Of a stretch of DNA of 20,065 bases, positions 1,305 through 18,749 are shown piece after piece (position 1 is the first letter of the stretch; every line of letters starts with the position of its first letter). The notes beneath the pieces were generated by a model. It was not told the origin of the DNA. It saw only the letters and a program-made list of their open reading frames with translations, and searched no databases. The stretch is from IMG/VR virus record IMGVR_UViG_3300049893_000503, positions 1-20,065 of that record. The stretch is one strand, 5' to 3'. This DNA is from a virus. Both the position numbers and the translations under genes were made by a program.

Positions 1305-2972
1305 CTACTGCTCGCTTCCCAGCGACTGCAGCGCCTCGTTGTAGTACGCATTCCCGCCAACCATGAGGTCATCCGTTGGATTCTGCGTCCGGCCTCCGGC
1401 CCCCCATTCCATGAGGCCCGCGTGGAGTTCATCCACCGATTGATCGACTTGCCGTCGATAGGCTTCATCGAGTCTCTTCGCCATCCATCTGCGATCCATC
1501 GGCGTCATCGCGTAGAGCTTCTCTTCCGCGAACTTTCGGATCGCGAAGATGCGCGCCCGTCCCTGCGGAGACAACGAGGCCACATCTTGAACGGTCATCG
1601 AAGCAATGCGCTGCTTCAGGCCGCGGTACATCTGCTGCTCGAAGTCGCTGACTTGCTTGCCTCCCTCGGCAGTACCGACAGAGAGTGTCGCGAGCGTGGA
1701 GATCGTGTCGTATAGCTCGTAGAGGGCGCGGCCCGCGCCAGTCGTCTCCTTGAGACTCTCAATCGGCTGCGTGAGCAAACTGGCCGGATCGCCGGTTCGC
1801 TGAAGCTCCGCTGCGAACTCGTGAGCCGCCGCCTCCATCTGCGCCACCATTCCGACGACGCGATTCACAGATTCCACGCGAATGCGGTTGGATGAGGCAG
1901 CTCCAGGCTTGCCGGACTCGCGGTAGATCGGAGCAGCGCCCATCCCGAGAGATGCGAAGCGATCATCCATGAATGCCTTGTTCTCGTTCACGGAGTTCAG
2001 CAAGTCGGTGCCCACGTTGATCCCAGTAACGCGATACTCGGCTCGCGTTGCGGAATCTTCCATCAGCGTGTCTTTGTTCAGGCGGATCGAATCCGCAATC
2101 AATGAGAAGGCGCGTTGCGCATCCTTTTTCAGTACCGGATCGCGCCGAATCTTTTCAATCGTGGACTCGATGCTCGTGCGCTGCACTCGCCTTCCGCGAT
2201 GACCGACAACTTCCTCTGGAAGTGCGGAGGCATATAGTTCTGCCGCAGACGCCGCGACGCGGGACTGAAAGAGTTTCTCCTCGCGCTGCATGTCGAGGTC
2301 TTGGAACGCCGTCCTGCGCGCAGCAAGCGCATCCAGGCTGGTCTCGCGACGATTCGCCGCCGCAGTGGCAGGCAGGAGATCGAGAGACACGCGCGCGTCC
2401 TGACGCTGCGTTCGCTCTCTCTCCGCGAGCGCGTCCCGCAATGCGCGTTCTCGCTCGCGCTGCGCGCTGATCGTCTCTGCATCCGTCAGTGACTGCATCG
2501 ATCCGAGCCTTGTCAGCGCCTGCGTCAGAAGGTCTGGTTGGTCTTGCAGTTGCATTTGCAGCGCAGCCACTTGGTCATTGATCGACGAGTTGATGCCCGG
2601 AGGACGCTGCGCGAGAGGGCCGCCTGCCTTGATGAGTTCTCCGATGGTCGAAAGGGTGCCACCCTCTCCCGTCGCCTCTTGCGCTTTCTTCGCCGCCTTC
2701 CGCTGCGAATCCAGCAGCTTCAGCATCGCACGGCCTTGGGTATCGACCCCAGGAACCGCGGTCAGGACATCGTTCAAGTTCGCGTCTGGCGTCTTCTCCC
2801 AGAGCGTGATGGCGTTCTGATTGTCCTGCTCTTGCTTGCGCAGAACCTCCTGCCTTGCACGCTCTCGTTGCTGAAAATCTTCCTGCCGCCGCTGCTCCTC
2901 AAGCGCGAACACGTCGCGCTCGCGCTGATCGTTGCGCTGGCGGAGCTGCTGGATCAGGGTGATGGCGGCCAT
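1305..2972 (-). CDS. Coiled-coil internal virion (ejection) protein candidate
   Basis: This is a 555-residue protein. Its start at 2972 lies three bases after the preceding stop (2976-2978), and its stop touches the next start at 1304. Residues about 8-55 are extremely rich in Arg, Glu and Gln (heptad-like, RERDVFALEEQRRQEDFQQR) and should form a long helix. A second charged helix lies at about 170-195 and another at about 215-240. No signal peptide, membrane span or enzyme motif is seen. Long helical proteins of this kind in the ejection-protein block of short-tailed phages are packed inside the head or core and are released at infection. I infer that role from the order fibre, ejection 1, ejection 2, ejection 3 and from composition, not from a recognised family signature. 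A structural scaffold or tail-core role is also possible. Confidence 0.6.
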   Translation of the reverse strand: MAAITLIQQLRQRNDQRERDVFALEEQRRQEDFQQRERARQEVLRKQEQDNQNAITLWEKTPDANLNDVLTAVPGVDTQGRAMLKLLDSQRKAAKKAQEATGEGGTLSTIGELIKAGGPLAQRPPGINSSINDQVAALQMQLQDQPDLLTQALTRLGSMQSLTDAETISAQRERERALRDALAERERTQRQDARVSLDLLPATAAANRRETSLDALAARRTAFQDLDMQREEKLFQSRVAASAAELYASALPEEVVGHRGRRVQRTSIESTIEKIRRDPVLKKDAQRAFSLIADSIRLNKDTLMEDSATRAEYRVTGINVGTDLLNSVNENKAFMDDRFASLGMGAAPIYRESGKPGAASSNRIRVESVNRVVGMVAQMEAAAHEFAAELQRTGDPASLLTQPIESLKETTGAGRALYELYDTISTLATLSVGTAEGGKQVSDFEQQMYRGLKQRIASMTVQDVASLSPQGRARIFAIRKFAEEKLYAMTPMDRRWMAKRLDEAYRRQVDQSVDELHAGLMEWGAGGRTQNPTDDLMVGGNAYYNEALQSLGSEQ

Positions 2973-2975
2973 TGC

Positions 2976-4244
2976 CTAGTAACCGTAATCGTTCGGGTTC
3001 GTCTGTCCTCGCGTAACGGTGACACCAGGAGACAATCCATAGAGCCTGTCAATGCCACTATTGAGATTCGCCTGCCGATTGCTCAATTGGGCGGCTCGGT
3101 TCTGTTCGCTGATGAGGCCAGGAATCGATCCTAACTGGTTGGCGAGACCTGTGATTCCTTGACCCAACGCCTGATTGTATTGCGACTGCAACGCTGCCAA
3201 CTGCATCGCTTGATTCGACGCGATGTTCGACAGGGAGACGTTGTTGTTCGACTGAAGCCCAAGAAGAGCGAGCGGAAGCTGATCCTGTGCGTTCAGAGAC
3301 CCCTGAAGCGTTGTCAGTGCGTTGGCCTGTAGACTCTGCTCGCCTCCGAGAAGTTGCAGCGTTCTCGCGAGTGCGTCCGGCCCAGCTGCGAGATTCGCTA
3401 GAGCGCGTCCTTCGCCGAGTCGTCCCATCTGTCCAGCGGGGTTGATTCCGTATGCGTTCGCATGATAGAGGGCAGCCTTATCGCGATCGTCGAACTCGCG
3501 AGCGATCTGCGCTCTAAGAATGTTCTCCATTTCGGCAGAACGCGCTGTCAGTTGCTCTTCCGTAGGCGAGACGAATCCAGACTGGAGGTCGGCAATCCGA
3601 CGCAGAGCATCGTTGCGTCCAGCCGCAGTGGCAGCGGAAGCATCGTTCGCGTCGTTGACGCGGCCTGCGATCTGTCCCTCGAAGTCGAGCTGCGCCTGAA
3701 TGAAGTCTTCTAGTCCGACATAACCGGACGAGGAGAGCAGGCGGTTGAAAACGCTGACGCCACGCTTCTTCTGACGCGCGCTCGGACTGCCTCCCTTGCC
3801 GAAGAACCCGAACGGGTCCATGACGCCGCGAATGTCTTCCTCGTTTCCGAGAAATCCGTCGCGGTATCCCTCGTGCCCGGTCTTGTTGTACCAGGGAGTC
3901 GCTTCGATGTTGCGCGCGATCTCTGCTGCTGAAAGTCCAGCCTCCCTGCCTTTCTGCACCTGCCGATAGAAATTGTCCATCAGCGACGAGAAAGCGACCT
4001 GCCCCTTCCGCTTGAGTCCGATCTGCTGTGCAGCGCCGAGCAGCGTCGCAAGCGGAGAGCCAGCGCGAACGGTCCCAGCATTGATGGGAGAACCAGTTCC
4101 GATGAGAGATTGCATGAGGAGTTGCTGAAACAGTGGACTCGACTGGATACCGATCAGCGCAGGAGAGCCAGGGTTGTGCGGCTTGGATGCCAATGCCCCG
4201 CCGATACTTCCAGCAGCTCCAAGGAGTGCCGTGATCCAGGCCAT
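2976..4244 (-). CDS. Virion protein with hydrophobic N-terminus, ejection-protein candidate
   Basis: This is a 422-residue protein. Its ATG at 4244 shares a base with the stop of the sulfotransferase gene (TAATG), which suggests coupled translation. It begins with a Gly/Ala-rich hydrophobic segment (MAWITALLGAAGSIGGALAS), the type of start common in phage internal or ejection proteins thought to enter membranes. Residues about 215-400 are Gln/Asn/Ala/Leu-rich and look helical, with low-complexity Gln-Ala-Leu stretches and many Asn residues. The C-terminus is short and Tyr-ended (NPNDYGY). No catalytic motif is visible. Codon third positions carry clearly more A and T than in the terminase or portal genes, as in the other two ejection candidates. 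The ejection role is an inference from position and N-terminal character. Confidence 0.55.
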   Translation of the reverse strand: MAWITALLGAAGSIGGALASKPHNPGSPALIGIQSSPLFQQLLMQSLIGTGSPINAGTVRAGSPLATLLGAAQQIGLKRKGQVAFSSLMDNFYRQVQKGREAGLSAAEIARNIEATPWYNKTGHEGYRDGFLGNEEDIRGVMDPFGFFGKGGSPSARQKKRGVSVFNRLLSSSGYVGLEDFIQAQLDFEGQIAGRVNDANDASAATAAGRNDALRRIADLQSGFVSPTEEQLTARSAEMENILRAQIAREFDDRDKAALYHANAYGINPAGQMGRLGEGRALANLAAGPDALARTLQLLGGEQSLQANALTTLQGSLNAQDQLPLALLGLQSNNNVSLSNIASNQAMQLAALQSQYNQALGQGITGLANQLGSIPGLISEQNRAAQLSNRQANLNSGIDRLYGLSPGVTVTRGQTNPNDYGY

Positions 4245-4816
4245 TAGGCCGCCCTCCCAAAGAGCTTGGTCGCCATCGTGAGCGAGAGCGCGATGTCGGC
4301 GCTGCGCACGGTGACGTTCATGTCGCGCAGTTGCTCCCAGCGTTCATTGCGCCAGGCGACCTCGTCGCGTAGGCAGTGCCACCAGATGGCGCGAGCGCCT
4401 TCGCGCAGCGAGAGGTCGCTCCAGCGCAGTTCCAGCGTCGCCGGGTCGGCTGCGATGCGGTCGAGATGATGAGACGCCGCCTCGACCATCCCGCGTGCCT
4501 CGTGCACGTCGATGGTCGGCATGCCGAGGTAGGGGTGCATCCGAACGAGCGATAGGACGACTTCCTCGGGATTGCGGCGCAAGACGACCCAGCGCGCCTT
4601 CGGATAGAGTGCGCGGAGCTCGTCGTAGAAGAACACGAGGCCCGAGTCGCTATCGCCGCAAATCTCCGCCGTCTCCATCTTCTTCTGGAAGGCTTCGAGG
4701 CTCGGCGTGTTCGCGAGTCCGTCATGCCAGCAGAAGGCCGGAGAGACCGAGAGGAAGTTCGCGGCCCAGGCTGTGCGCGAGCGTGGAAGTCCGGTGATGA
4801 AGAACTTACCCGCCAT
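4244..4816 (-). CDS. Sulfotransferase-family protein (PAPS-dependent type), next to the tail fibre gene
   Basis: This is a 190-residue protein. An N-terminal strand-loop-helix, residues 5-23 (FFITGLPRSRTAW then a helix), matches the 5'-phosphosulfate-binding loop of PAPS sulfotransferases. Residues 74-91 (ARWVVLRRNPEEVVLSLV), with Arg80/81 and Ser89, match the 3'-phosphate-binding strand and helix. His31 (FCWHDG) is a candidate catalytic base, by analogy only. The enzyme family transfers sulfate from PAPS to hydroxyl or amine acceptors on sugars, lipids, steroids or protein tyrosines. The acceptor here cannot be read from sequence. It has no signal peptide, so it is probably cytoplasmic. Its length is short for the family, so it is a minimal version. 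It starts 11 bases inside the end of the upstream fibre gene and ends TAATG into the next gene, so it is embedded in the virion operon. A P-loop kinase is less likely because the loop lacks GxxxxGKS/T. Confidence 0.85.
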   Translation of the reverse strand: MAGKFFITGLPRSRTAWAANFLSVSPAFCWHDGLANTPSLEAFQKKMETAEICGDSDSGLVFFYDELRALYPKARWVVLRRNPEEVVLSLVRMHPYLGMPTIDVHEARGMVEAASHHLDRIAADPATLELRWSDLSLREGARAIWWHCLRDEVAWRNERWEQLRDMNVTVRSADIALSLTMATKLFGRAA

Positions 4817-6251
4817 AGGGAAGCACCTTCACCTTCAGATAAGTCGTCTGAGACGAATCCTTCTGCATCGTAATATTGTGGTCGTCGCGCGTGGCGGCGA
4901 TCAGATAACGATAGGACTGCCCCGGGTTTGGTGTTTTGACGACGTGCCCGAGATTCCCCCAATAGTTTTGCGTTCGGCCGGATGATGTCCCATCGCGCGT
5001 CACTTGCAGCGTGTTCACCGCTGAGAAGGCTCCACCGTTCACTGATTGGTAGAGTTTCACCGTCATCGTCTGTGCGGTGGTGTCGTTCACCGTGTCTTCG
5101 CCGTTGAACTGAGCGTCTACCTCGATGTAGTAGCCATCCCCTGGGACGTAAACGGTCACGTCGAAATCTGTGGTCCCACTCTCGATGATTCTGTATCCGG
5201 CATCTATTCCAGCATCAGAACCTGCGTCAATGACTTGGGTTCCTGCCGTCGAGCCAGAGAGGTACTCCACGACCGCAACGCGCTGGGCCAGAGGCGTCGC
5301 CGAGCACTCGCCCCAGCACACGCCAGCGCACCAGACGATGTCGGTATCGGCTGCGGCGAGGACGCTCACGACGATGTTGGTGGGCGTCGCGTCGGTCTGG
5401 ACGACGCCGCCGATGAACGTCCAACCGGTCGAGGTCGTGGTGGCCGTGATGTCGCGGAAATCGGAGGCAGCGTTCGCGCCCGTCGTCGTCAGCTTTGCCG
5501 TGTCGCCAGCCGTTGCCTTCACCAGCGCGTAGATCGCGTAGCGCGTAGCGGACTTCAGGCCGGAGAGCGTGTAGGACATGCCCTCGTTGGCCGAGCCCGC
5601 TGCCGTGATCTTGATGGCACGGCCCTTACCAGCCGTCTTGTCGGCAGCGTCTGCCGCTTCCTGCGCAAGCGTCGCCGTGTTGACGTTTGCCCACCCCGCG
5701 GGGAGACCAGCCGTGACGACGCCGTTGATGCCCGGAATCCACTGGAGCTCGCGTACCGGGAGGTCGCCCCAATAGGTCGTCTCCGCCGTGCCGGTGGCGT
5801 CAAAGCGAGTCGCGTCGATGCCAAGCGCCTGCCGCTCGATGGCGTAGCGCAGCCGATGAATCTCGCCCTCGCCCGTCGTCGCAAGGCTCTCAGAGTTCGT
5901 GACGCCCGGATCGACCGCCGTCGCAGCGCCGGCGGCATTGGCCGAGGTATCCCCCAGCTTGGTGAGCGTGATGTCGGCCGCCGAGTTGATCTTGGCGTTC
6001 AGGATCGTGTCGTCGGCGATGTCGCCGTTCACGATCGTTCCGTTCACGATGTCGGCCGAAACGATCGAGTTCGCGAGGTTCAGCTTCGAGTAGGCAATCG
6101 CCGCGCCAGCGGCCACGTCCGCGTTCAGGATTCCGCTGTTGAACTTGTTGAACAGCGTGTCCATGTCGCCGTTGATGTCATCGGCGTTCCAGACGGCCCC
6201 GGTATTGACCGAGGTTCCACCGCCCGTCTTCGTGTTGCGTGAGATCGCCAT
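4806..6251 (-). CDS. Tail fibre / receptor-binding protein with repeat stalk and beta-rich head domains
   Basis: This is a 481-residue protein. Residues about 40-98 hold degenerate repeats of the type I-x-N-A-D-I / V-N-G-D-I (for example NADVAAGAAI and IVNGDIADDTI), a pattern common in trimeric phage fibre shafts. Residues about 205-315 look like a jelly-roll, carbohydrate-binding-like domain (GMSYTLSGLKSATRYAIYAL near 224-243, then alternating beta strands). A Cys-rich turn follows (WCAGVCWGEC, 307-316). The C-terminal 160 residues are beta-rich and end in a conserved-looking strand (YLKVKVLPYGG). The start is ATG at 6251, three bases after the nozzle gene's stop. Such proteins decorate the tail and recognise host surface polysaccharide. 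Fibre identity rests on repeat style, beta content and position, and the receptor is unknown. The next gene, a sulfotransferase, overlaps its last 11 bases. Confidence 0.72.
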   Translation of the reverse strand: MAISRNTKTGGGTSVNTGAVWNADDINGDMDTLFNKFNSGILNADVAAGAAIAYSKLNLANSIVSADIVNGTIVNGDIADDTILNAKINSAADITLTKLGDTSANAAGAATAVDPGVTNSESLATTGEGEIHRLRYAIERQALGIDATRFDATGTAETTYWGDLPVRELQWIPGINGVVTAGLPAGWANVNTATLAQEAADAADKTAGKGRAIKITAAGSANEGMSYTLSGLKSATRYAIYALVKATAGDTAKLTTTGANAASDFRDITATTTSTGWTFIGGVVQTDATPTNIVVSVLAAADTDIVWCAGVCWGECSATPLAQRVAVVEYLSGSTAGTQVIDAGSDAGIDAGYRIIESGTTDFDVTVYVPGDGYYIEVDAQFNGEDTVNDTTAQTMTVKLYQSVNGGAFSAVNTLQVTRDGTSSGRTQNYWGNLGHVVKTPNPGQSYRYLIAATRDDHNITMQKDSSQTTYLKVKVLPYGG

Positions 6252-6254
6252 CGA

Positions 6255-7928
6255 CTATTCCCCGCCGTCCTGGTAGCCGTGGGTCTGCACCATCTCGGTC
6301 GCCTGTGCGATGTAGAAGGGCTCGTTGGTCCCCGAATGCCTGAACTCTAACGCGATCGTCTCTCCATCGCCCCGCGGGTACACCTTGTCCATCGTCGTCA
6401 CTTGCCCGCCGCCGACGATGCCCGAGCCGACGATCAGGGCTCCAACCAGCTCGCCCGAGGCAGGCATACGAAGCGAAAGCGGCGTCCCTTGCGAATCTCC
6501 ATAGTCGAAGATCGGCGTAACAGTCGGGCGGTGCGAACCGCCGGGCTGAAGCGTGACGTAGATGTCACCGAGACCTTTGGTGACGCCAGAGAGCCCGAAG
6601 TCCTCGTGCCGCGTCCGCATCCGCACGTCGTAGGGCGATCCTAGGTCCGAGTGCGAGCCGGACGAGGAATCGTCGAAACGGCCCACATCGCCCTCGGCGT
6701 TCCCGCCATAGACGAAGAAGCCCGTCGTTCCCGAATCTGTCCGAGCCGTCGCGAGAGCCGTGATGAGCCGCTGATCGGCGGTCAGCGACCCCGCCATCGA
6801 CCAAATGTCCCATTCCACCGTCTTGGCCGTCAGGTTCGCGTTGTTCTTCACGTCGAGGCAGAGGATCGTGTCCGGGTTCGTATTGCTCCCCGTGGGGACG
6901 GCGAAGATCACGAACCCGCGCTTCGGGTCGTAGGCCCCGACCGAGCGGTGTAGCGCCGTCTGGTTCAGCGTTCGGAACGTCTGCCTGATCTTCCAGGAGA
7001 GGAACGAGTCAATGCGCTCGCCGAACTGCTCGCTGATCCGTACCGAGTGGATACCGACCCGCGAGAGGTAGATGGCGTCGCCCGAGTCGAGGCCGAGCGA
7101 GACGAAGGCGTTCTGGTGAACGCATCCATTCATCACGACGCCCACCGGAGGCGTATAGAACGGGGTGACCGAGTCGCCCGTGTTCCCGACCGCGTAGAGG
7201 CGCTTGTTCGAGAGCGCGAGCAGCCAGTCGCCAGCGTTGTTCGAGAACTCGCCGAATCCGGTCAGGAACTCGTCACCGTAGGACGAGAACCCGCCCACGG
7301 CGCTCGTCCCGCCGAAGGTCGAACCCGTCGGCCAGGTGGTCATGTCATTCAGGTCCGAGTAGCGGACGATCATCGGACCCGAGGAGAGGTCGGTCGCGAG
7401 GTTGCCGAGCGAGTTTCGGAAGCCGCAGGTGAAGCCGAAGTTCCACTTCTCGAAGACGTAGGTCGGGTAGATGGCGGCTGCCGAGAGATCGACCATCGCA
7501 ATGTTCGAGGTCGTGCCCGAGCCCGGCCAGCTCCAGAAGTTGTTCGTCCCCGTTCCGCCCGCTCCGTAGAGAACGCCCTTGTGCTGGGCGAACGTCCAGC
7601 GGTGGTTGGCCCCGGCCGTAACCGCCGTGCCCGCGTTCTTGATGCTCGTCGCGTCGGCACGGAAGATGTCGCCGTTCGCGACGACGACGAGGAACTGACT
7701 CGCGTCGTTCGCGAATCGGTAGTCCACGATCCCGTTGACGGCGTCGCCGAGGCCCGCCGAGTTCGTGTAGAAGAGCGTGTCGCGGTTGAAGCCAGGGCGT
7801 GTGCCGCGCGAAGTCCCGCGCCGCCACGAGTTCCGCGCGATCGAGCAGTCGTTGCGCTCCAGCGCCGCCGGGTTCTCATCCTCGTTGAGTCCGCCGAGCT
7901 TCAGCGTGAACGGCTGATAGCGCGTCAC
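6255..7928 (-). CDS. Beta-propeller-like tail hub/nozzle candidate
   Basis: This is a 557-residue protein with a GTG start whose first base is the last base of the preceding stop (TAGTG at 7930-7926). It begins with a motif typical of phage proteins of this type: a short intro (KLGGLNEDENPAAL) then an RxGxxRGTRPGF-like strand at about 36-47. Repeated beta segments follow, such as VNGIVDYRFANDASQFLVVV (64-83), DWLLALSNKRLYAVGNTG and DAIYLSRVGIHSVRISEQFG. Such strings of VxxxNGxI(Y/F) strands suggest a propeller. Proteins of this length and fold between the adaptor and the fibres act in short-tailed phages as the tail nozzle or DNA-stabilising knob that closes the tail channel. No enzymatic motif is visible. 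The role is inferred from fold style and gene order. A baseplate-hub function in a siphovirus-like tail cannot be excluded. Confidence 0.6.
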   Translation of the reverse strand: MTRYQPFTLKLGGLNEDENPAALERNDCSIARNSWRRGTSRGTRPGFNRDTLFYTNSAGLGDAVNGIVDYRFANDASQFLVVVANGDIFRADATSIKNAGTAVTAGANHRWTFAQHKGVLYGAGGTGTNNFWSWPGSGTTSNIAMVDLSAAAIYPTYVFEKWNFGFTCGFRNSLGNLATDLSSGPMIVRYSDLNDMTTWPTGSTFGGTSAVGGFSSYGDEFLTGFGEFSNNAGDWLLALSNKRLYAVGNTGDSVTPFYTPPVGVVMNGCVHQNAFVSLGLDSGDAIYLSRVGIHSVRISEQFGERIDSFLSWKIRQTFRTLNQTALHRSVGAYDPKRGFVIFAVPTGSNTNPDTILCLDVKNNANLTAKTVEWDIWSMAGSLTADQRLITALATARTDSGTTGFFVYGGNAEGDVGRFDDSSSGSHSDLGSPYDVRMRTRHEDFGLSGVTKGLGDIYVTLQPGGSHRPTVTPIFDYGDSQGTPLSLRMPASGELVGALIVGSGIVGGGQVTTMDKVYPRGDGETIALEFRHSGTNEPFYIAQATEMVQTHGYQDGGE

Positions 7929-8305
7929 TAGACAAGTCCGACTTCGCCGAATGCCGCGAGCGTGAGCGTTGTGTTGGCGCTCGCTCCGCCGACCAGGAAG
8001 CCGTTTGCCCCTTCGAGCCGGAGTGCGGGCGAGAAGTAGAGATCATCAACCGACTGCGCGGCGACACTCTTCAGGTTGGCAAGCTCCGTGCCCGCCGCGT
8101 TCGCGCCTGTCGCTCCCTTCCAGAGCGAATAGGTGGCCGCCGCACCTGTCTTGTTCGCAACATGGATTTGGCGAATGAAGATGACGGTGGCCGTTGCCGT
8201 GTAGCCGACGCCACCCGCACCCGCCGCTGCCGGAGCAACGAGGTTTGTGGTGGTTGTCGTCGTGAGCGCGACGGGTCCGAAGATTTCCTGCTTGTTCTGT
8301 GCCAT
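7928..8305 (-). CDS. Small virion-type beta-rich protein, function unknown
   Basis: This is a 125-residue protein. The start ATG at 8305 is preceded by TAGGAG at a good distance, and that site overlaps the upstream gene's stop. The N-terminus has a run of six Thr (ALTTTTTTNLV). It continues as a Gly/Ala-rich beta protein with the strand pattern TATATVIFIRQIHVANKTG (36-54) and ends in ANTTLTLAAFGEVGLV. This simple beta-sandwich look (I-x-x-I-H-V-A-N-K-T-G, then a conserved-looking Y-S-L-W-K-G) is seen in small phage virion proteins that sit on fibres or heads. I do not recognise a specific family. Its last base overlaps the GTG of the nozzle gene. It is probably made with the surrounding tail proteins and is likely structural, not enzymatic. 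Confidence 0.7.
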   Translation of the reverse strand: MAQNKQEIFGPVALTTTTTTNLVAPAAAGAGGVGYTATATVIFIRQIHVANKTGAAATYSLWKGATGANAAGTELANLKSVAAQSVDDLYFSPALRLEGANGFLVGGASANTTLTLAAFGEVGLV

Positions 8306-9201: not shown

Positions 9202-9987
9202 CTAACTCCACTGCCAAGAGACGTTGAACTGGCCATAGAGCCTGGTGCCGAACCCAGCCCCACCAGCCCTATTCTGCCCACTAGTTAGGTGACCAAGCGG
9301 CTGCTCATTCACCTGCCCAGTGTTCTTCCCATAGATGGTGAAGCCAGTTCCCGGCACGATGTTCCCCGCTAACACATTGAGCGTCTCCACCCAATGCTCA
9401 TCCGCAGAGTGGTCCGCAGTCGCCACCGGCCTAACCCACGCTTGAAGGGTTGACCCAGCGATGATGCCTGCCTGGCCGGTAACTGCGACCGAGGCATCGC
9501 TCGCACCTGGGAAGCTACCAAAGTTCAGAACCGCTGTTCCCACATTCCCAGCGCCGCCAGCCGGTCCTTGTGGCCCAGTGTCACCTTTCGGGCCAGGTGG
9601 CCCTTCTGGGCCTTCTGGGCCTTCTGGACCTTGAGGTCCGATGTTTCCCTGAACGCCTTGAGCCCCTGTTGCTCCATCAACACCCTGACGCCCCGGCGGA
9701 CCTTCCTCGCCTGGGTCTCCATCCATCCCCGGCGGACCGGGGCTTCCTGTCGCCCCGGTCGCCCCCGCAGTACCTTGGTTCCCTTGCGGACCCGGCGGCC
9801 CTGGGTCTCCGTCCGCACCCGCCTCTCCGGGTGGCCCAGGCTGACCTGCGCCTGATCCTCCGGTTCCCGCCGGAACCGTGAAGTTCCCTTCTCCGTCGAG
9901 ATACTTCGTCGCGTCGTCAGGGAAGAATACCTTCTTGCCCGAGACGGCGTGCTCGTTCTCCAGAAGCCATTTCGGATTGTCGGGCAT
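9202..9987 (-). CDS. Collagen-like phage fibre protein
   Basis: This is a 261-residue protein with three parts. Residues 1-47 form an N-terminal attachment region including [18 protein letters not shown], a motif common just before the shaft of phage fibres. Residues 48-143 are 32 uninterrupted Gly-X-Y triplets, rich in GPP, GPQ, GPE and GAT, which should form a collagen triple helix. Residues about 150-261 form a globular beta-rich C-terminal domain ([18 protein letters not shown], then STLQAWVRP, ending [11 protein letters not shown]), probably the trimerising or receptor-facing tip. The start is ATG at 9987, with an AGGAG site about eight bases upstream. Collagen-like shafts are well known in tailed phages as extended trimeric fibres. 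The Gly-X-Y stretch has internal DNA repeats, so its length may vary between relatives. Whether it sits on head or tail is not decided by sequence. Confidence 0.93.
9599..9625. repeat. Three tandem copies of a 9-bp unit within the collagen-like coding region
   Basis: GGGCCTTCT (plus strand) occurs at 9608-9616 and 9617-9625, and with one mismatch (GGCCCTTCT) at 9599-9607. On the coding (minus) strand these encode consecutive Gly-Pro-Glu triplets. Such runs favour slippage or recombination, so the triplet number may differ between related phages. Confidence 0.85.
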
Positions 9988-11765: not shown

Positions 11766-12353
11766 TTAGGTGGTGTAGCCGTAGTGCAAGGCGACTGCGC
11801 GCACGCGCTCGGTCATGGAACCGAGATCGTCCCATACGATGGGCTTCTTGTTGGGGGTTTCCCAAGATGGGTCTCTTTCGACGACTGGAAGAGGCTTGTT
11901 CTCGTCTCCCAGCAGATAAGCGATCCCGCGCCAATCGGACTCACCGTGCTCGACGCGGAAGCGAGCGTCCGGGTTCTGGCGCTCGATGATCTCGTGCCAA
12001 CGCAGCCAGAACTTTGCTGCGAACGAGAGGCTATCGGGTCGATAGACGATGTCCGTGTGCCCCTGTTGCCAGTGCCAGAACTGTGGGTGGTTGAAGGCGA
12101 CGAGAGAGGAGATGCAGGTAAGCGGGTGGCGGATGATGTGGATGAGAAGCGGATTCATGTAGTCGCTCCTCTTCCCGCCCGACTGGAGGTATGGGTTCCA
12201 CCAGTCGTCCACCGTGAGGTAGCAGGAGACTTGACCGTCTCTGCCCTTGGCTTCGTGGAGGGCTCTGACCCCCGCGGCCATGAGCAGGCGCGACACATAC
12301 CGGGTTCCACCGCGTGGTGTCCCGAGCCCGAGTATGGGCCGCGCCTGCGTCAC
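11766..12353 (-). CDS. Sulfotransferase-family protein 2 (PAPS-dependent type)
   Basis: This is a 195-residue protein. The GTG start shares its first base with the TAG of the upstream gene (TAGTG). Residues 8-20 (LGLGTPRGGTRYV) match the 5'-phosphosulfate-binding loop, and residues 70-84 (LIHIIRHPLTCISSL), with Arg75 and Ser82/83, match the 3'-phosphate-binding strand and helix. The helix around 116-123 (WLRWHEII) also matches the family. No signal peptide or membrane span is seen, so a cytoplasmic enzyme is likely. The acceptor is unknown. It differs strongly from the sulfotransferase at 4244-4816 in both sequence and motif details (GTPRGGT versus GLPRSRT), so the two are not a recent duplication. 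It uses codons such as ATA, AGA and AGG that are rare in the terminase, consistent with a separate origin. It lies between a putative decoration gene and a coiled-coil protein gene. Confidence 0.85.
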   Translation of the reverse strand: MTQARPILGLGTPRGGTRYVSRLLMAAGVRALHEAKGRDGQVSCYLTVDDWWNPYLQSGGKRSDYMNPLLIHIIRHPLTCISSLVAFNHPQFWHWQQGHTDIVYRPDSLSFAAKFWLRWHEIIERQNPDARFRVEHGESDWRGIAYLLGDENKPLPVVERDPSWETPNKKPIVWDDLGSMTERVRAVALHYGYTT

Positions 12354-13120
12354 TAGCTGCGAATCCGCAGGTCGGCGAGCACCGAGTGCTCATCCGTTCC
12401 GTTGGGGCCGAGGACGTAGCCGACGAGCGGCAGCGGATCGAGGGTGCCGGTGGCACCCGTTTCCACCGCGAGCTTCACCTGGCCTGCGTCCGACGTGGCG
12501 GCGGTTGCCGGGACGAGCGGCTGTCCGATCGTCAACGAGCCTTCCGCCGACACCGAGCAAGGTCCGCTGGTCTGAATCCAGAAGAACTTGTTCGTGGTCG
12601 AGCCGTCGGTCACGGTGCAGGGCATGACGCCCACCACCGTCTGGGCCTGCGAGTTGCCAGGGAACACGACGACATCGCGGTACAGGTTCTTCTGAAGGGA
12701 ACCCGTGGCCGCTGCGAGCGTCGTCTCCCACGGCTCATCGACGGTGATCGTCTCCGTCGTCGAGCCCGCCGAGGCGTTGTTGCTGACGACGATCCGGTAC
12801 TGGCTGATGCCCGTACCGGAGTCGCACCACATGTAACCATCAGCGTATTGATCGGCCGTGAGGGCCGTTGCACCGATGGCGAGTGTGGCGGTCTTGAGGC
12901 CCGCCGTCGCGGTCATCGTGCGGTCCTGATGATTCGCAACGACCGGAGCCTGACCCATCAACTGACCCCGTGTCAGCGTGGTCGAGTTCGAGTGCATCGC
13001 GTAGTAGAAGACGCGACCGCCGGGCAGAATCAGCTTCGTTCCGAGAGCGTGGAACTTCGTGGTGCTCGACGTGAAGACGGTCTGCGGAGAGTGCCAGATG
13101 ATGGCCGGTTGGATGGACAT
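12353..13120 (-). CDS. Probable head decoration or minor virion protein
   Basis: This is a 255-residue protein. The ATG at 13120 is preceded by AGAAGGGA at a good spacing, directly after a strong hairpin (13137-13162). The protein is rich in Thr, Ala, Val and Gly, with many strand-like stretches (RVFYYAMHSNSTTLTRGQLM near 36-55, STTETITVDEPW, RDVVVFPG, NKFFWIQTSGPCSV). The C-terminus resembles those of virion proteins that coat capsids (PLPLVGYVLGPNG, then HSVLADLRIRS). Position right after the major capsid gene is where phages often encode cement or decoration proteins. I recognise the style, not a named family. It could also be a fibre base. The C-terminal gene overlap with a sulfotransferase is discussed in the findings. 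A Tyr-rich acidic patch (QYADGYMWCD near 91-100) is a conceivable sulfation site. Confidence 0.65.
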   Translation of the reverse strand: MSIQPAIIWHSPQTVFTSSTTKFHALGTKLILPGGRVFYYAMHSNSTTLTRGQLMGQAPVVANHQDRTMTATAGLKTATLAIGATALTADQYADGYMWCDSGTGISQYRIVVSNNASAGSTTETITVDEPWETTLAAATGSLQKNLYRDVVVFPGNSQAQTVVGVMPCTVTDGSTTNKFFWIQTSGPCSVSAEGSLTIGQPLVPATAATSDAGQVKLAVETGATGTLDPLPLVGYVLGPNGTDEHSVLADLRIRS

Positions 13121-13171: not shown

Positions 13172-14197
13172 CTAGGCCGTGACGCCCGTCAACTTGTTGA
13201 GCAGGCGGCGGTCGCTGACCATCAGCTGACCCTTGAGCACCAGCTCGCTCGACTTCGCTTCCTGCGTGGTCGCGTCCTTCCAGGGCTGGAACTGCATGTC
13301 GGCCCCGGTGAGACAAATCAGCTGGACGGCGTCGGTGTTGATGAAGTAGATCACGCCGCTCGTCGCGAACGGGTCTCCGTAGAACCGCGCGTTGCGGAAC
13401 TGGAGCGCGTTGAACGAGGCGTTGCCGACCTTGTCGTCCGAGCCGTAGCGTTGCTGGCTGACCAGCTGGCCTTCGTAGAAGTTGTAGATGTCGTACGTCG
13501 TGAAGATGACGTTCGGCATCCGCCCGCCCTCGGTCGCGTTCGTCATCGCAAGGCGCATGTCCGAGATGCCCTGCGCGGCGAACGAGCCGCTCGTGAACGA
13601 CACCGAGGCCGCCGCCGTGCCGCGCGCCGAGACGCCACGGCTGTTCCAGTTCGGGAACGAAACGCCCGAGAGTCCCTGCACCGTGTCATTGGCCGAGATG
13701 ATGGAGTCGAGACCCGTGAACTCGGTCGCGGCGTTGCCCGAGACGATGTCGCGCGTCCCGAGTTCCACCAGCGAGGAGTAGACGACCCGCGTCTCGGTAT
13801 CGACGAGGCTCGACCGCGCCGCTGGGCCGGTGTTGATGAGCGTGTCCGTCAGCGAGATCGTGCGGGTGCCAGAGTAGTGCTTCCAGTTCGACTCGCTGCG
13901 GCGGCCGAAGTCCTGCGGCGTGGTGTCGTAGGCACTCCACCCCGAGGCCATCGCCTGGACGGTCGAGTTCTGCTCGACGATGTGATCCATCTGCGGCTTC
14001 TGGCCGCCGTCCTGCATCTTCTTGGCCATCCCGGCCATGACGCGCTGGCCGGCGTCATCGTCGGGATTGTCGCCGAGGAAGATCGAGCCGATGACGCTCG
14101 ACTGGAAGGCGATGTTCTTGACTGTCGAGATGCGCGCTTCGTCCGTGAAGAACAGCTCGCGGTCGATCTGCCGCGAGAGGGTCTGAGAGACTGCCAT
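13172..14197 (-). CDS. Major capsid protein (HK97-fold type)
   Basis: This is a 341-residue protein. The start ATG at 14197 is preceded by AAAGGA at good spacing. The protein has the feel of phage capsid subunits: an N-arm (RQIDRELFFTDEARISTVKN near 9-28), a hydrophilic stretch (GDNPDDDAGQRVMAGMAKKM), and a long domain of short strands and loops. It continues with strand patterns such as NVIFTTYDIYNFYEG (231-245) and SGVIYFINTDAVQLIC, and ends at RRLLNKLTGVTA. Order scaffold, capsid, decoration, adaptor and the TerL/portal upstream all fit. Assembly is into an icosahedral head around the scaffold. The family name is not certain from sequence alone (a Gp13-like group is possible), but the major capsid assignment is strong. 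High expression would be expected, and an mRNA hairpin lies right after the stop. Confidence 0.88.
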   Translation of the reverse strand: MAVSQTLSRQIDRELFFTDEARISTVKNIAFQSSVIGSIFLGDNPDDDAGQRVMAGMAKKMQDGGQKPQMDHIVEQNSTVQAMASGWSAYDTTPQDFGRRSESNWKHYSGTRTISLTDTLINTGPAARSSLVDTETRVVYSSLVELGTRDIVSGNAATEFTGLDSIISANDTVQGLSGVSFPNWNSRGVSARGTAAASVSFTSGSFAAQGISDMRLAMTNATEGGRMPNVIFTTYDIYNFYEGQLVSQQRYGSDDKVGNASFNALQFRNARFYGDPFATSGVIYFINTDAVQLICLTGADMQFQPWKDATTQEAKSSELVLKGQLMVSDRRLLNKLTGVTA

Positions 14198-15100: not shown

Positions 15101-15464
15101 GTTTCTTCCCCTTCACGCTCCGAAGCGGTTGTGCTCCGAAGTGAAAGCTGCGTGCGCCGAGCGGGTCGTATTCCGTCCGCGCGCCGTTCACCTTATCACC
15201 CCGCGGGGTAACGCCATAGAGTTCGCGCATTTTCTTGTCGCGCTCTCGGCTGCTGGTCCAGGTAAGATTCTCCCCGCGGGGACCGCAGAGGACGCCGGTG
15301 TGATCTTCTTGCGTCGCACCGGCCACGTCGGTCGCGGGGGCGGTGGTGATCCAGACGCGGCGATTCGTGCCACAGCGCGAGCAGGTTCCGTACTGGCCGA
15401 ACTCGACCATCTCGTCCCGCCACTCGCGGTCGCAGCCTGGGCAGTAGAGGTCGTGGCGAATCAT
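15075..15464 (-). CDS. Small zinc-ribbon protein between portal and scaffold
   Basis: This is a 129-residue protein. The ATG overlaps the portal stop (ATGA). Two CxxC pairs, C8/C11 (CPGC) and C28/C31 (CSRC), sit within the first 35 residues and form a zinc ribbon of the FmdB-like type. The rest is polar, with a basic Lys/Arg/Ser/His-rich C-terminus (GAQPLRSVKGKKHGRSNPAA). Small zinc ribbons at this place recur in phages, but their roles are mostly unproven: they may bind nucleic acid or help portal/scaffold assembly. The gene contains two exact CCCCGCGGGG palindromes (15199-15208 and 15272-15281). Confidence 0.8.
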   Translation of the reverse strand: MIRHDLYCPGCDREWRDEMVEFGQYGTCSRCGTNRRVWITTAPATDVAGATQEDHTGVLCGPRGENLTWTSSRERDKKMRELYGVTPRGDKVNGARTEYDPLGARSFHFGAQPLRSVKGKKHGRSNPAA

Positions 15465-17206
15465 TGGATGCCCGCCCCGGTGAGCGCCTGGATCAGCTGC
15501 GAGTTGTCCGCACCCTCGGGCTGCTCCTGGCCGGGCAACTGCGGCTGCTGCGTCGCCGCGATCTGCTCGTCGTTCAGCATCACCTTCGCAACGTTGTTGC
15601 CCGCGGCGCGGTGATAGGCGGCGACGATCTCCTGCATGTTGTGAAGCTGCGGGAACTGGCTCGCCACCTGAAGGTCAGCGAGCGCCTGCTGTACGCGCCG
15701 GTTCTTCGTGTCCGGGAGCGTCGAGCCCTGCTTGATGATGAAGTCGTACTCGCCCGCGAGGTCTTCGGGCGTCACTTCGAGGTACTTCTGCGCGAGGTCG
15801 GTGATCAGGATGCGCGAGTCCTCGGTGCCGAGGATCGGGACGACCTCTTTTTCGAGCGTCGTCGCGCGCCGCGCCTGCGCGTAGTGGCGGATGCAGGAGT
15901 CGAGATAGTCTTCGAGCGCCTCGATGTTGCGGCTCGAATTCGTGGCCGCGCCCTGCGCAACGCGCGATGCTTCCTGCGCCGACTCGACGTTGATGCGCTG
16001 GCCCCTGTCCATGTCGGACTGCCCGAGCGCCTCGCGCACGTCTTCTTTCAAGAGCGCGTCGTAGATCATGAGTTCCGCCGGGAAGCCGCCTAACTGAATC
16101 TGTCCGATCGCGTTTCCGATCTCGCCGCGCAGCGCGATGAACTCGCCGTCCTGAAGCGTGGACAGCTTCGCGGCTACGCCTTCGCCGAGAGCATTCTCGT
16201 TGTAGGGGATCACACGGCGGAGGCGCTTGGTGAGTTCCTCCATGAGCGTCCGCAATTTGTTCCGCATCTCGACCGCGGGCATGATCGTCTGCGCGAACGG
16301 CACGGGGAAGAGCGTGTCGGCCTGCGGATTGAAGTAGAGCGCGTCGTAGGGCAGGTCTTCCCACGGAAGCGGCCACTCGGCCTCGCCGCGCAGGATGTTC
16401 TCGTAGGTGCCGTCGAGCTGGAGCCAGGTGCGGTCGGTCTTGTCGTAGATCGACCAGACCTCGTAATACTCGGCAGGCGCGGCCTTGCTGCGCGTTCGCT
16501 TCTGGCCCATCGGCGTCGGGAGCGTGATCCGAACCGTCGCCTTCCCCGCCTTCGGCAGCACCATGTTCGGGTTGCGCTTGATCTCGTCCTCGGTCATCAG
16601 CGTCCGAAACGCGCACCAGCGCGCGTCGCCATCGGAATCGGGCGTCTCCGCGGTCGGGTCGAGCCGCGTGTCCCAGAGCGTCCAGCGCCGCACCCACGGC
16701 TTATCGCGCCGAGCGCCTGCATAGGTCTGGAGCAGTTCGTCGTCGCTTTTCCCCTGGAACTCTTCCGAGGGCGTGAAGCCGTGGCGCGTGATGCCGAACG
16801 GGCAGAAGAAGGCGTCGAAGACGGTGCGCTTCCACTGGCGCTTCATCTTGAGCTCGTAGACATCGTAGTTGAGCACCGCCTCGACCTTGCGCGCAGCCTC
16901 GGCCACCTGCGGGCGGCGCGGGAGGACGCTGATCTCGGGCGAGCGGGCGATCAAGCCCGCAACGAACGTGTTCGCGACGCTGAAGAAGAGGGGCGTGACC
17001 GCCAGCGCCTCAGGCGGAAGGCCCATCCAGCCCATCGCATTCCACTGCTGACCGCGGTAGGCCGCGAGGTAGCGCGTTGCCTGCTCGCTCGCGTTCGCCG
17101 TCTCGATGCGCGCCGACTGCTTCCAGCCCGCCTCTTCCCAGACGAGATCGGCGTACTCCATCTGGGTGCGCCAGTGCTTGAGGAGGCTGTTGTTAGGCCG
17201 CGCCAT
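15461..17206 (-). CDS. Portal protein
   Basis: This is a 581-residue protein, starting ATG at 17206 with AGAGGA upstream and overlapping the terminase end by 14 bases. It has the profile of phage portals: an N-terminal helical region, VEAVLNY at 108-114 and the following helix, and DAFFCPFGITR at 131-141, a pattern conserved in many portals. A central beta-rich segment follows (DKPWVRRWTLWDTRLDP near 168-184, EYYEVWSIYDK), then long helices (PAVEMRNKLRTLMEELTKRLRRV; SQEASRVAQGAATNS-like). The C-terminus is Gln-rich and disordered (ATQQPQLPGQEQPEGADNSQ). Twelve copies form the ring at the head vertex through which DNA enters and leaves. Neighbours TerL and scaffold support the call. Confidence 0.95.
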   Translation of the reverse strand: MARPNNSLLKHWRTQMEYADLVWEEAGWKQSARIETANASEQATRYLAAYRGQQWNAMGWMGLPPEALAVTPLFFSVANTFVAGLIARSPEISVLPRRPQVAEAARKVEAVLNYDVYELKMKRQWKRTVFDAFFCPFGITRHGFTPSEEFQGKSDDELLQTYAGARRDKPWVRRWTLWDTRLDPTAETPDSDGDARWCAFRTLMTEDEIKRNPNMVLPKAGKATVRITLPTPMGQKRTRSKAAPAEYYEVWSIYDKTDRTWLQLDGTYENILRGEAEWPLPWEDLPYDALYFNPQADTLFPVPFAQTIMPAVEMRNKLRTLMEELTKRLRRVIPYNENALGEGVAAKLSTLQDGEFIALRGEIGNAIGQIQLGGFPAELMIYDALLKEDVREALGQSDMDRGQRINVESAQEASRVAQGAATNSSRNIEALEDYLDSCIRHYAQARRATTLEKEVVPILGTEDSRILITDLAQKYLEVTPEDLAGEYDFIIKQGSTLPDTKNRRVQQALADLQVASQFPQLHNMQEIVAAYHRAAGNNVAKVMLNDEQIAATQQPQLPGQEQPEGADNSQLIQALTGAGIQ

Positions 17207-18749
17207 GAATCCTCTCGAAGCGGCTCGTCGCGCCGATGAAGTGCTGAGGCCGCTCGAACTGCCGCCGGTAGGCTTCGCCCTCGCGGCGCTTGACCAGCCA
17301 GTCCTTGTACCAATCCGAGTCGCCCGTCTGCGCGCGCGGGCGCGAGCGCGCGAAGGCCCGGAGTGCGTCGATCGCGTGGTCGGCCCCGATCAGTGCGCCT
17401 TCGCTGAACTCGTCCCGCACGCCGTCCTTGAAGCGGATGTCGGTCATCTCGCGGATCGCGTTCTCGCAGCTTGCGTGCACGAAGAGGCGCGGGCGCTTGG
17501 TTGCGGGATCGACGGCGAGGAGATCGCGCAGTTCGCCGTAGCCCGCGGCGCGGTCGCGCAGGTAGTTGGGCGTAAAGGCGTGGAAGAGCGGGAGCCCGGC
17601 GCGGCGCATCACTTCGGTCAGCTGCGGCTCTTGCGGGTCGGGCACCCATTGGTTCACGCGGATGCCGAGATCGGCCTCGCGCTTCTTGGCCCAGGCCACC
17701 ACGTCCGAGACGACGAGGCCGCGCTGATAGATTTCGCTCGCGAGCACCATCTCATTCGAGCCGGGGTCGAGCGCGATGAAGCCGACGAAGGTCGGGTCGT
17801 TGTAGCCGTAGTCGCAGCACGCGACCCAGGTGGCGTTGTAGACCCAGGAGGGGAGCTTCTGGACGATGTTGCACTCGCCATGGCCGTCCTCCAGCCAGCG
17901 GAAGGGGAGGACTTTCCCGCCCTCGAACGTCCAGACGCCCTCGAACTGCTCCAGAAAGCCGGGGTCGTTCTCGGGCGCTCCGAACGTCAGGCGGCTCTTC
18001 TCGCGCGCGATCCGGTAGCCCTCCCAGTCGTAGGCGGGGTTGCACTCTTTGGTGAACGTGATGTGCTCGACCGAGAGCGCGGGATTCTGCTCGCCTTTGC
18101 GCGCGAGGTCGTAGAGCCACTTCGCCTTCCGCTTGGGCGTGGTGGGATAGATGATCCGGTGGCAGCGCGTTTCGAGGTACTTGGGCAAGAGGTCGGGGGT
18201 GTGCTCGGCGGCCTCGGAGACGATGGCGAGCGTCACCTGCTCGCCTTGGAGCGTCTTCTCGTTGCTCGCCGACTTCACCTGGAGGACCGAGCGCACGGTG
18301 CCGGCGCTCGGACTTGTTAGGAACGGCCAGGCGACGCGGATGAGCAGGTTGCCTTGGTTCGGCGAGTTGTAGGACTGCTCGATCTTGCCGCCGAACTTCT
18401 CGATCAGGCGCTTGTCGATGAGCTGCGCCCAGGCGTAGTCCCACTCCTTCGCCATCGAGTAATCGACGGCCACCATCCAGATGACGGTCTCGTCGCGCTC
18501 GGCGACGATCTTCTTCTCGCCGTCCACTTCTTCGATGCGGTAGCGCGGGAAGAAGGCGTGGATGGCTTCAGGCGCAGCCGCGTAGGACTTCGACGTGCGC
18601 GCGGGCGCGGAGACGACCAAGTGGCGGGCGGCCGAGAGGTGGAAGCGCCGGACGGGATCGGCGTAGATTTTGTAGCCGATCAGATCGAAGAGCGTCTTCT
18701 TGGACGTTTCGAGCGTCGGGCCGAAGAACGGTGTGAAGGCCGTCGTCAC
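17193..18749 (-). CDS. terL: Terminase large subunit (ATPase and nuclease)
   Basis: This is a 518-residue protein with a GTG start at 18749; the site upstream is weak. The N-terminal ATPase part has a Walker A-like loop SAPARTSKS (47-55). A Walker B-like strand TLAIVSEAAE sits at 173-182, with Ser before the catalytic Glu where Asp is usual. A coupling motif YPTTPK follows at 201-206. The C-terminal nuclease, an RNase H-like fold, shows its acids at D313 (CCDYGYNDP), D371 (VPDPQEPQ) and D457/D461 (GADHAIDALR). The enzyme pumps DNA into procapsids through the portal and cuts the concatemer. Its gene overlaps the portal gene. No classic small terminase is recognisable upstream, so the recognition subunit is either one of the small genes before it or elsewhere. 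Functional family assignment is very strong. Confidence 0.97.
   Translation of the reverse strand: MTTAFTPFFGPTLETSKKTLFDLIGYKIYADPVRRFHLSAARHLVVSAPARTSKSYAAAPEAIHAFFPRYRIEEVDGEKKIVAERDETVIWMVAVDYSMAKEWDYAWAQLIDKRLIEKFGGKIEQSYNSPNQGNLLIRVAWPFLTSPSAGTVRSVLQVKSASNEKTLQGEQVTLAIVSEAAEHTPDLLPKYLETRCHRIIYPTTPKRKAKWLYDLARKGEQNPALSVEHITFTKECNPAYDWEGYRIAREKSRLTFGAPENDPGFLEQFEGVWTFEGGKVLPFRWLEDGHGECNIVQKLPSWVYNATWVACCDYGYNDPTFVGFIALDPGSNEMVLASEIYQRGLVVSDVVAWAKKREADLGIRVNQWVPDPQEPQLTEVMRRAGLPLFHAFTPNYLRDRAAGYGELRDLLAVDPATKRPRLFVHASCENAIREMTDIRFKDGVRDEFSEGALIGADHAIDALRAFARSRPRAQTGDSDWYKDWLVKRREGEAYRRQFERPQHFIGATSRFERIHGAA

Follow-up and report, generated by a model that had tools for sequence, protein, structure and literature searches.

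We consider it likely that S1, a gene in a 20,065-nucleotide stretch of DNA from a short-tailed phage (hereafter the window), encodes a minimal PAPS-dependent sulfotransferase, as predicted from its sequence and a structure model, and that podovirus late operons have a conserved slot which this gene occupies as optional cargo. This assessment covers the enzyme class and the cargo slot, with the target left out. In these operons, the slot would lie between the head-closure and fibre genes and the DNA-ejection genes. The main genes of the window are all read from the minus strand; terminase comes first, followed by P22-like portal, scaffold, and Mx8-like capsid, and then by tail- and ejection-like genes (Table 1).

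Table 1. Coordinates of the features discussed, as positions in the window
Feature	Position	Strand	Description
Putative second ejection/internal virion protein	1305..2972	-	555 aa; placed by position only
Putative DNA-ejection protein	2976..4244	-	Presumed gp7/gp14-like by position; Gly/Ala-rich N-terminus MAWITALLGAAGSIGG; homologue in the relative L090
S1	4244..4816	-	190 aa, ATG start; predicted PAPS-sulfotransferase-fold protein
Overlap of fibre end and S1 start	4806..4816	-	11 bases
Putative tail fibre	4806..6251	-	481 aa; repeated I-NGDI/I-NAKI segments, conserved C-terminus VLPYGG
Head-closure Hc3 / P22 gp10-like protein (weak)	6255..7928	-	phrog_3287 virion structural, 8e-6
S2, sulfotransferase-like	11766..12353	-	195 aa; GTPRGGT, LHEAKG, RHPLTCISS; among capsid-proximal genes
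Major capsid protein (Mx8-like)	13172..14197	-	phrog_9953, 9e-23
P22-like portal protein	15461..17206	-	PF16510, 5.6e-12
Terminase large subunit	17193..18749	-	phrog_6672/5653

S1 is a genuine gene and not a chance open reading frame, since it scores above the cut-off for Sulfotransfer_3 (PF13469; 32.7 bits against 27), matches phrog_10855 (E=9e-16 in a PHROGs profile search), and has a homologue with 52% identity at the corresponding site of an independent contig, the 44-kb relative L090. The substitution values between S1 and this homologue (dN 0.48, dS 1.11) are close to those for the neighbouring fibre gene (dN 0.39, dS 1.03). An earlier note on this DNA had described a gene that starts 11 bases inside the end of the fibre gene and runs through TAATG into the next one. 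Both junctions are present, the second with one base common to S1 and the ejection gene, and the two motifs cited in that note, GLPRSRTAW and LRRNPEEVVLSLV, were found in the protein.

The note had also taken the product to be a PAPS-binding-type enzyme, a class that, as a prediction, has good support from the sequence family, the fold, and the signature residues. Sequence searches of S1 against the PDB gave no significant match and, therefore, the assignment rests on Pfam, fold, and residues. PF13469 was matched at E<=0.01 by 19 of 52 S1 relatives. An AlphaFold model (AF2), built from the 52-member family alignment, reached a pLDDT of 90.7 and a pTM of 0.87 and contains a beta-sheet core with the PSB strand-loop-helix and PB strand-turn-helix. 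All 23 of its PDB matches at E<0.001 were sulfotransferases, the first 13 of them tyrosylprotein sulfotransferases. A point against the class is the small size of S1 compared with most sulfotransferases; TM-scores by target were mostly 0.38-0.45. PAPS sulfotransferases have three essentials, namely a basic 5'-PSB loop residue, a serine in the 3'-PB motif, and a His or Glu base between them (PMC6637879, PMC11625862). The 5'-PSB loop of S1 is GLPRSRT, where the basic residue, R12, is found in 59/59 family sequences, S13 in 56/59, and T15 in 55/59. The 3'-PB motif is R81...S89, with the arginine in 58/59 sequences and the required serine in 55/59. Both candidate bases lie between the motifs, H31 (55/59) and Asp or Glu at position 32 (58/59).

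PHROG and several GenBank records instead label this family as a P-loop NTP hydrolase or kinase. Isolate genomes carry the annotation 'putative nucleotide triphosphate hydrolase', and shikimate and other kinases do appear lower in the fold list of S1. This reading is very improbable, given that the fold E-values of sulfotransferases are about 100-fold better than those of kinases, that S1 is above the PF13469 cut-off, and that the Walker A pattern GxxxxGK[ST] is absent from the S1 family, whose loop is GLPRS[RGA]T with an invariant arginine in place of the lysine. The 'hydrolase' and 'nucleotide triphosphate hydrolase' labels are thus unlikely to be right for the phrog_10855 family, which lacks the Walker lysine, and the 'hydrolase' label on phrog_10855 should be corrected.

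The second part of the main finding, the cargo slot, comes from comparing an occupied and an empty site. L090 is close to the window phage (capsid protein 74% and terminase 71% identical), and its S1 homologue has the same 11-base overlap with the preceding gene (18434-18444). L098 is more distant (terminase 35%, capsid 40%), and its slot is empty; the fibre stop is at 13065, the ATG of the next gene is at 13068, and no S1 homologue was found in the 44.8-kb contig. Together, these two genomes suggest a fixed slot that S1 occupies as optional cargo. Scans with TerL and MCP for close relatives of the window phage returned only L090 and the partial L096, and a scan with the putative ejection protein returned none. 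The rest of the L090 contig carries GcrA, RecT, and YqaJ genes (pieces L094 and L093), and GcrA suggests an alphaproteobacterial host.

The names that the earlier note gave to the genes on either side of S1 have weak support from sequence. The fibre assignment has a weak match to phrog_2012, minor tail protein (E=0.008), and the protein is 54-56% identical to its L090 counterpart. The ejection assignment follows from position and composition, while a profile comparison of that protein with the phrog_598 set was negative. Upstream of the fibre, the head-closure candidate matched the Hc3 set at E=0.0012 with a probability of 20% (hhalign). Also within the virion operon is a collagen-like protein with Gly-x-y repeats (9202-9987, minus strand). 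Separately, the 'acetyltransferase' of Xanthomonas phage PBR31 (L103:8066-8437) resembles the window protein at 7928-8305 by eye.

The same surroundings recur in unrelated podoviruses from IMG/VR. Profile searches placed Hc3 upstream and/or a DNA-ejection protein downstream of the S1 gene in 19 of 58 non-redundant family loci, and these virion-slot loci are spread over several clades of the S1-family tree. Around the S1 homologues of L045 and L073, PHROGs names Hc3, tail fibre, and DNA ejection, and further loci show such neighbours too. PMC8954989 describes a gp7, gp20, gp16 ejection operon, with which the sizes of the downstream genes in L045, L053, and L073 are consistent. Two other candidate modifying enzymes in the slot, the 123-aa 'acetyltransferase' of PBR31 and a 'sialate O-acetylesterase' of DSL-LC05, were dropped because they had no Pfam support. 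We also noticed that a 39 kb record, Limnohabitans phage DC33 (PQ492659.1, L108), is filed under Inoviridae, a label that looks wrong.

Since the slot lies within the late operon, S1 would be made late, alongside the virion proteins. The earlier note had likewise proposed production with virion proteins; the linkage to virion genes is supported and recurs in divergent podoviruses. S1 relatives were found in 53 isolate phage records and, by a search with the family alignment, at a minimum of 86 IMG/VR loci. The alignment was needed for this, as single-protein pattern scans of IMG/VR with S1 or S2 gave no relatives. A bacterial-genome scan with a narrow pattern for S1 homologues gave only two matches. 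In siphoviruses of Pseudomonas, Stenotrophomonas, and Xanthomonas, the S1-family genes sit in replication or early regions. The family is therefore not tied to virion proteins, and these relatives are the main evidence that argues against a purely virion role. Two cyanophage-like contigs have a second weak S1-profile match adjoining the main homologue (L018:4286-5050 and L041:5945-6715), and a gene near another homologue (L019:10707-11306) matches the citrate synthase C-terminal domain (PF00285, 2e-9).

One way to read the early-region relatives is that the target of S1 is a small molecule or is related to nucleotides or DNA, or that S1 works against host defence. In PaMx11-like and AAT-1 phages, homologues do have replication, ligase, and exonuclease genes around them, and sulfotransferase-based phage DNA modification was proposed earlier, in work that PMC10829341 cites. 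Such a target is unlikely, however, as it leaves the repeated placement between fibre and ejection genes unexplained.

A second enzyme often accompanies S1 in this slot. A 2OG-Fe(II) oxygenase (PF05118) directly follows the S1 gene in 15 S1-side loci (L012/13, L016, L027, L062, L011, L091, L030/31, L080-82, L084, L085, L083), usually overlapping it by 4-17 bases, and has an invariant HxD, distal H, and Arg. Searching from the oxygenase side, we found S1 directly upstream in 26 of 78 further loci, a fraction biased upward because loci with oxygenases most like the S1-linked ones were ranked first; 18 of the 26 also have an ejection gene downstream. The order of S1 followed directly by the oxygenase was also noted in L112-L136, L141, and L177. 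Where S1 was missing, the largest upstream groups, read by eye, were a fibre-like protein (21 loci) and a 571-aa head-closure-like protein (19 loci). Oxygenase adjacency changes at least eight times on a quick S1 tree, so the pairing has probably been made or broken repeatedly. In the cultured Pseudomonas phage PfAn1, the slot holds the oxygenase together with a GNAT-like gene and without S1 (L107, 4722-5786), ahead of a protein annotated as controlling DNA ejection; the GNAT-like gene scored just under the Pfam cut-off. An S1 homologue elsewhere (L014:6433-7497) has a C-terminal extension that resembles this GNAT-like protein (BLASTP 2e-6) and in which no Pfam domain was found. The oxygenase was not found in the window or in any piece of L090. 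The hydroxylase pairing is a new observation here, and no description of a cassette of hydroxylase, sulfotransferase, and ejection genes was found among the open-access papers listed by a literature search.

As the target we favour, only tentatively, a protein from the tail or ejection apparatus of the phage itself. This choice follows from the recurrent place beside fibre and ejection genes and from the protein-sulfotransferase fold. The family, fold, signature residues, slot, empty slot, and hydroxylase partner are computational results, whereas catalytic activity, late expression, and target are all things that we infer. R12 in the 5'-PSB loop and R81/S89 in the 3'-PB helix would hold PAPS, H31 or D/E32 would deprotonate the acceptor hydroxyl, and the sulfate would move to the acceptor in one step. 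The PAPS itself must come from the host, as no PAPS-synthesis gene was seen in the flanks of L090. A more elaborate and rather doubtful version is that the podovirus hydroxylase and sulfotransferase form a two-step cassette in which a fibre or ejection protein is first hydroxylated and then sulfonated, tuning adsorption or genome delivery; within such a scheme, the window phage would carry the sulfotransferase half.

PF05118 also includes the lipid-A hydroxylase LpxO and, for that reason, a target in the host envelope is nearly as likely as a virion protein. Late in infection, an active S1 might modify the LPS, the capsule, or lipid A and so block re-adsorption to debris or superinfection, with the virion slot merely a convenient site for late-expressed cargo. 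The hydroxylase and the sulfotransferase could both act on lipid A. Glycolipids are sulfated by some bacterial members of PF13469, NodH among them (PMC11625862). The optional-cargo behaviour of the slot, the S1 relatives outside virion operons, and a phrog_3408 glycosyltransferase near S1 in L080 also fit an envelope target. It would remain a less than even choice, since several lineages have the gene in this place just upstream of the ejection genes, beyond what free cargo needs, and the closest folds are protein (tyrosine) sulfotransferases. Virion sulfation by S1 is possible, and the fixed fibre/ejection position, the empty slot, and the recurrent hydroxylase narrow the targets to a few that can be tested. 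Sulfated virion proteins, should they exist, would to our knowledge represent a type of post-translational modification new to phage particles.

The window holds a second sulfotransferase-like gene, S2, that scores 29.6 bits against PF13469 (cut-off 27). Its alignment with the S1 family is limited to the PSB loop and the HE motif (E=0.001, probability 21%, hhalign), and its structure model, made without homologues, had a pLDDT of 34. No phage relatives of S2 were found at ordinary cut-offs, and it was not found in L090. S2, the phrog_10855 membership of S1, and the hydroxylase partner in relatives were all absent from the earlier note.

Among known systems, the sulfotransferases of cyanophages and marine phages (S-SRM01, HMO-2011-type) resemble S1 as PF13469 genes in phages; we found no description of virion-slot linkage or hydroxylase pairing for them, and PMC10580990 treats phage sulfotransferases as auxiliary or metabolic genes whose function 'remains unclear'. 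Our search of the open-access literature found no paper linking phage, sulfation, sulfotransferase, and tail fiber. The Pfam family, in which S1 scores above the cut-off, and an Arg-type PSB loop are common to S1 and the bacterial enzymes of PF13469, for example NodH; the sequence match between S1 and NodH was not significant (E=1.3). TPST1/2 provide the best-matching solved fold and share with S1 a PRSxT loop, an acidic residue or His about 20 residues on, and R-x7-S. Their fold matches rank first, with a TM-score by query of 0.57-0.65, but at 12-19% identity this is insufficient for membership, and the solved TPST domain exceeds S1 in length by about 100 residues. The TPST residues are numbered R78 and E99, and these numbers were not used as evidence. 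The isolates in phrog_10855, namely Pseudomonas phages AAT-1, PaMx11, PaMx25, NP1, and phiH1 together with Stenotrophomonas and Xanthomonas phages, belong to the same family as S1, with 23-35% identity, near full length in most records, and the same signature residues. Their siphovirus members differ from the window phage in where the gene sits, in early or replication regions there and in the virion operon here.
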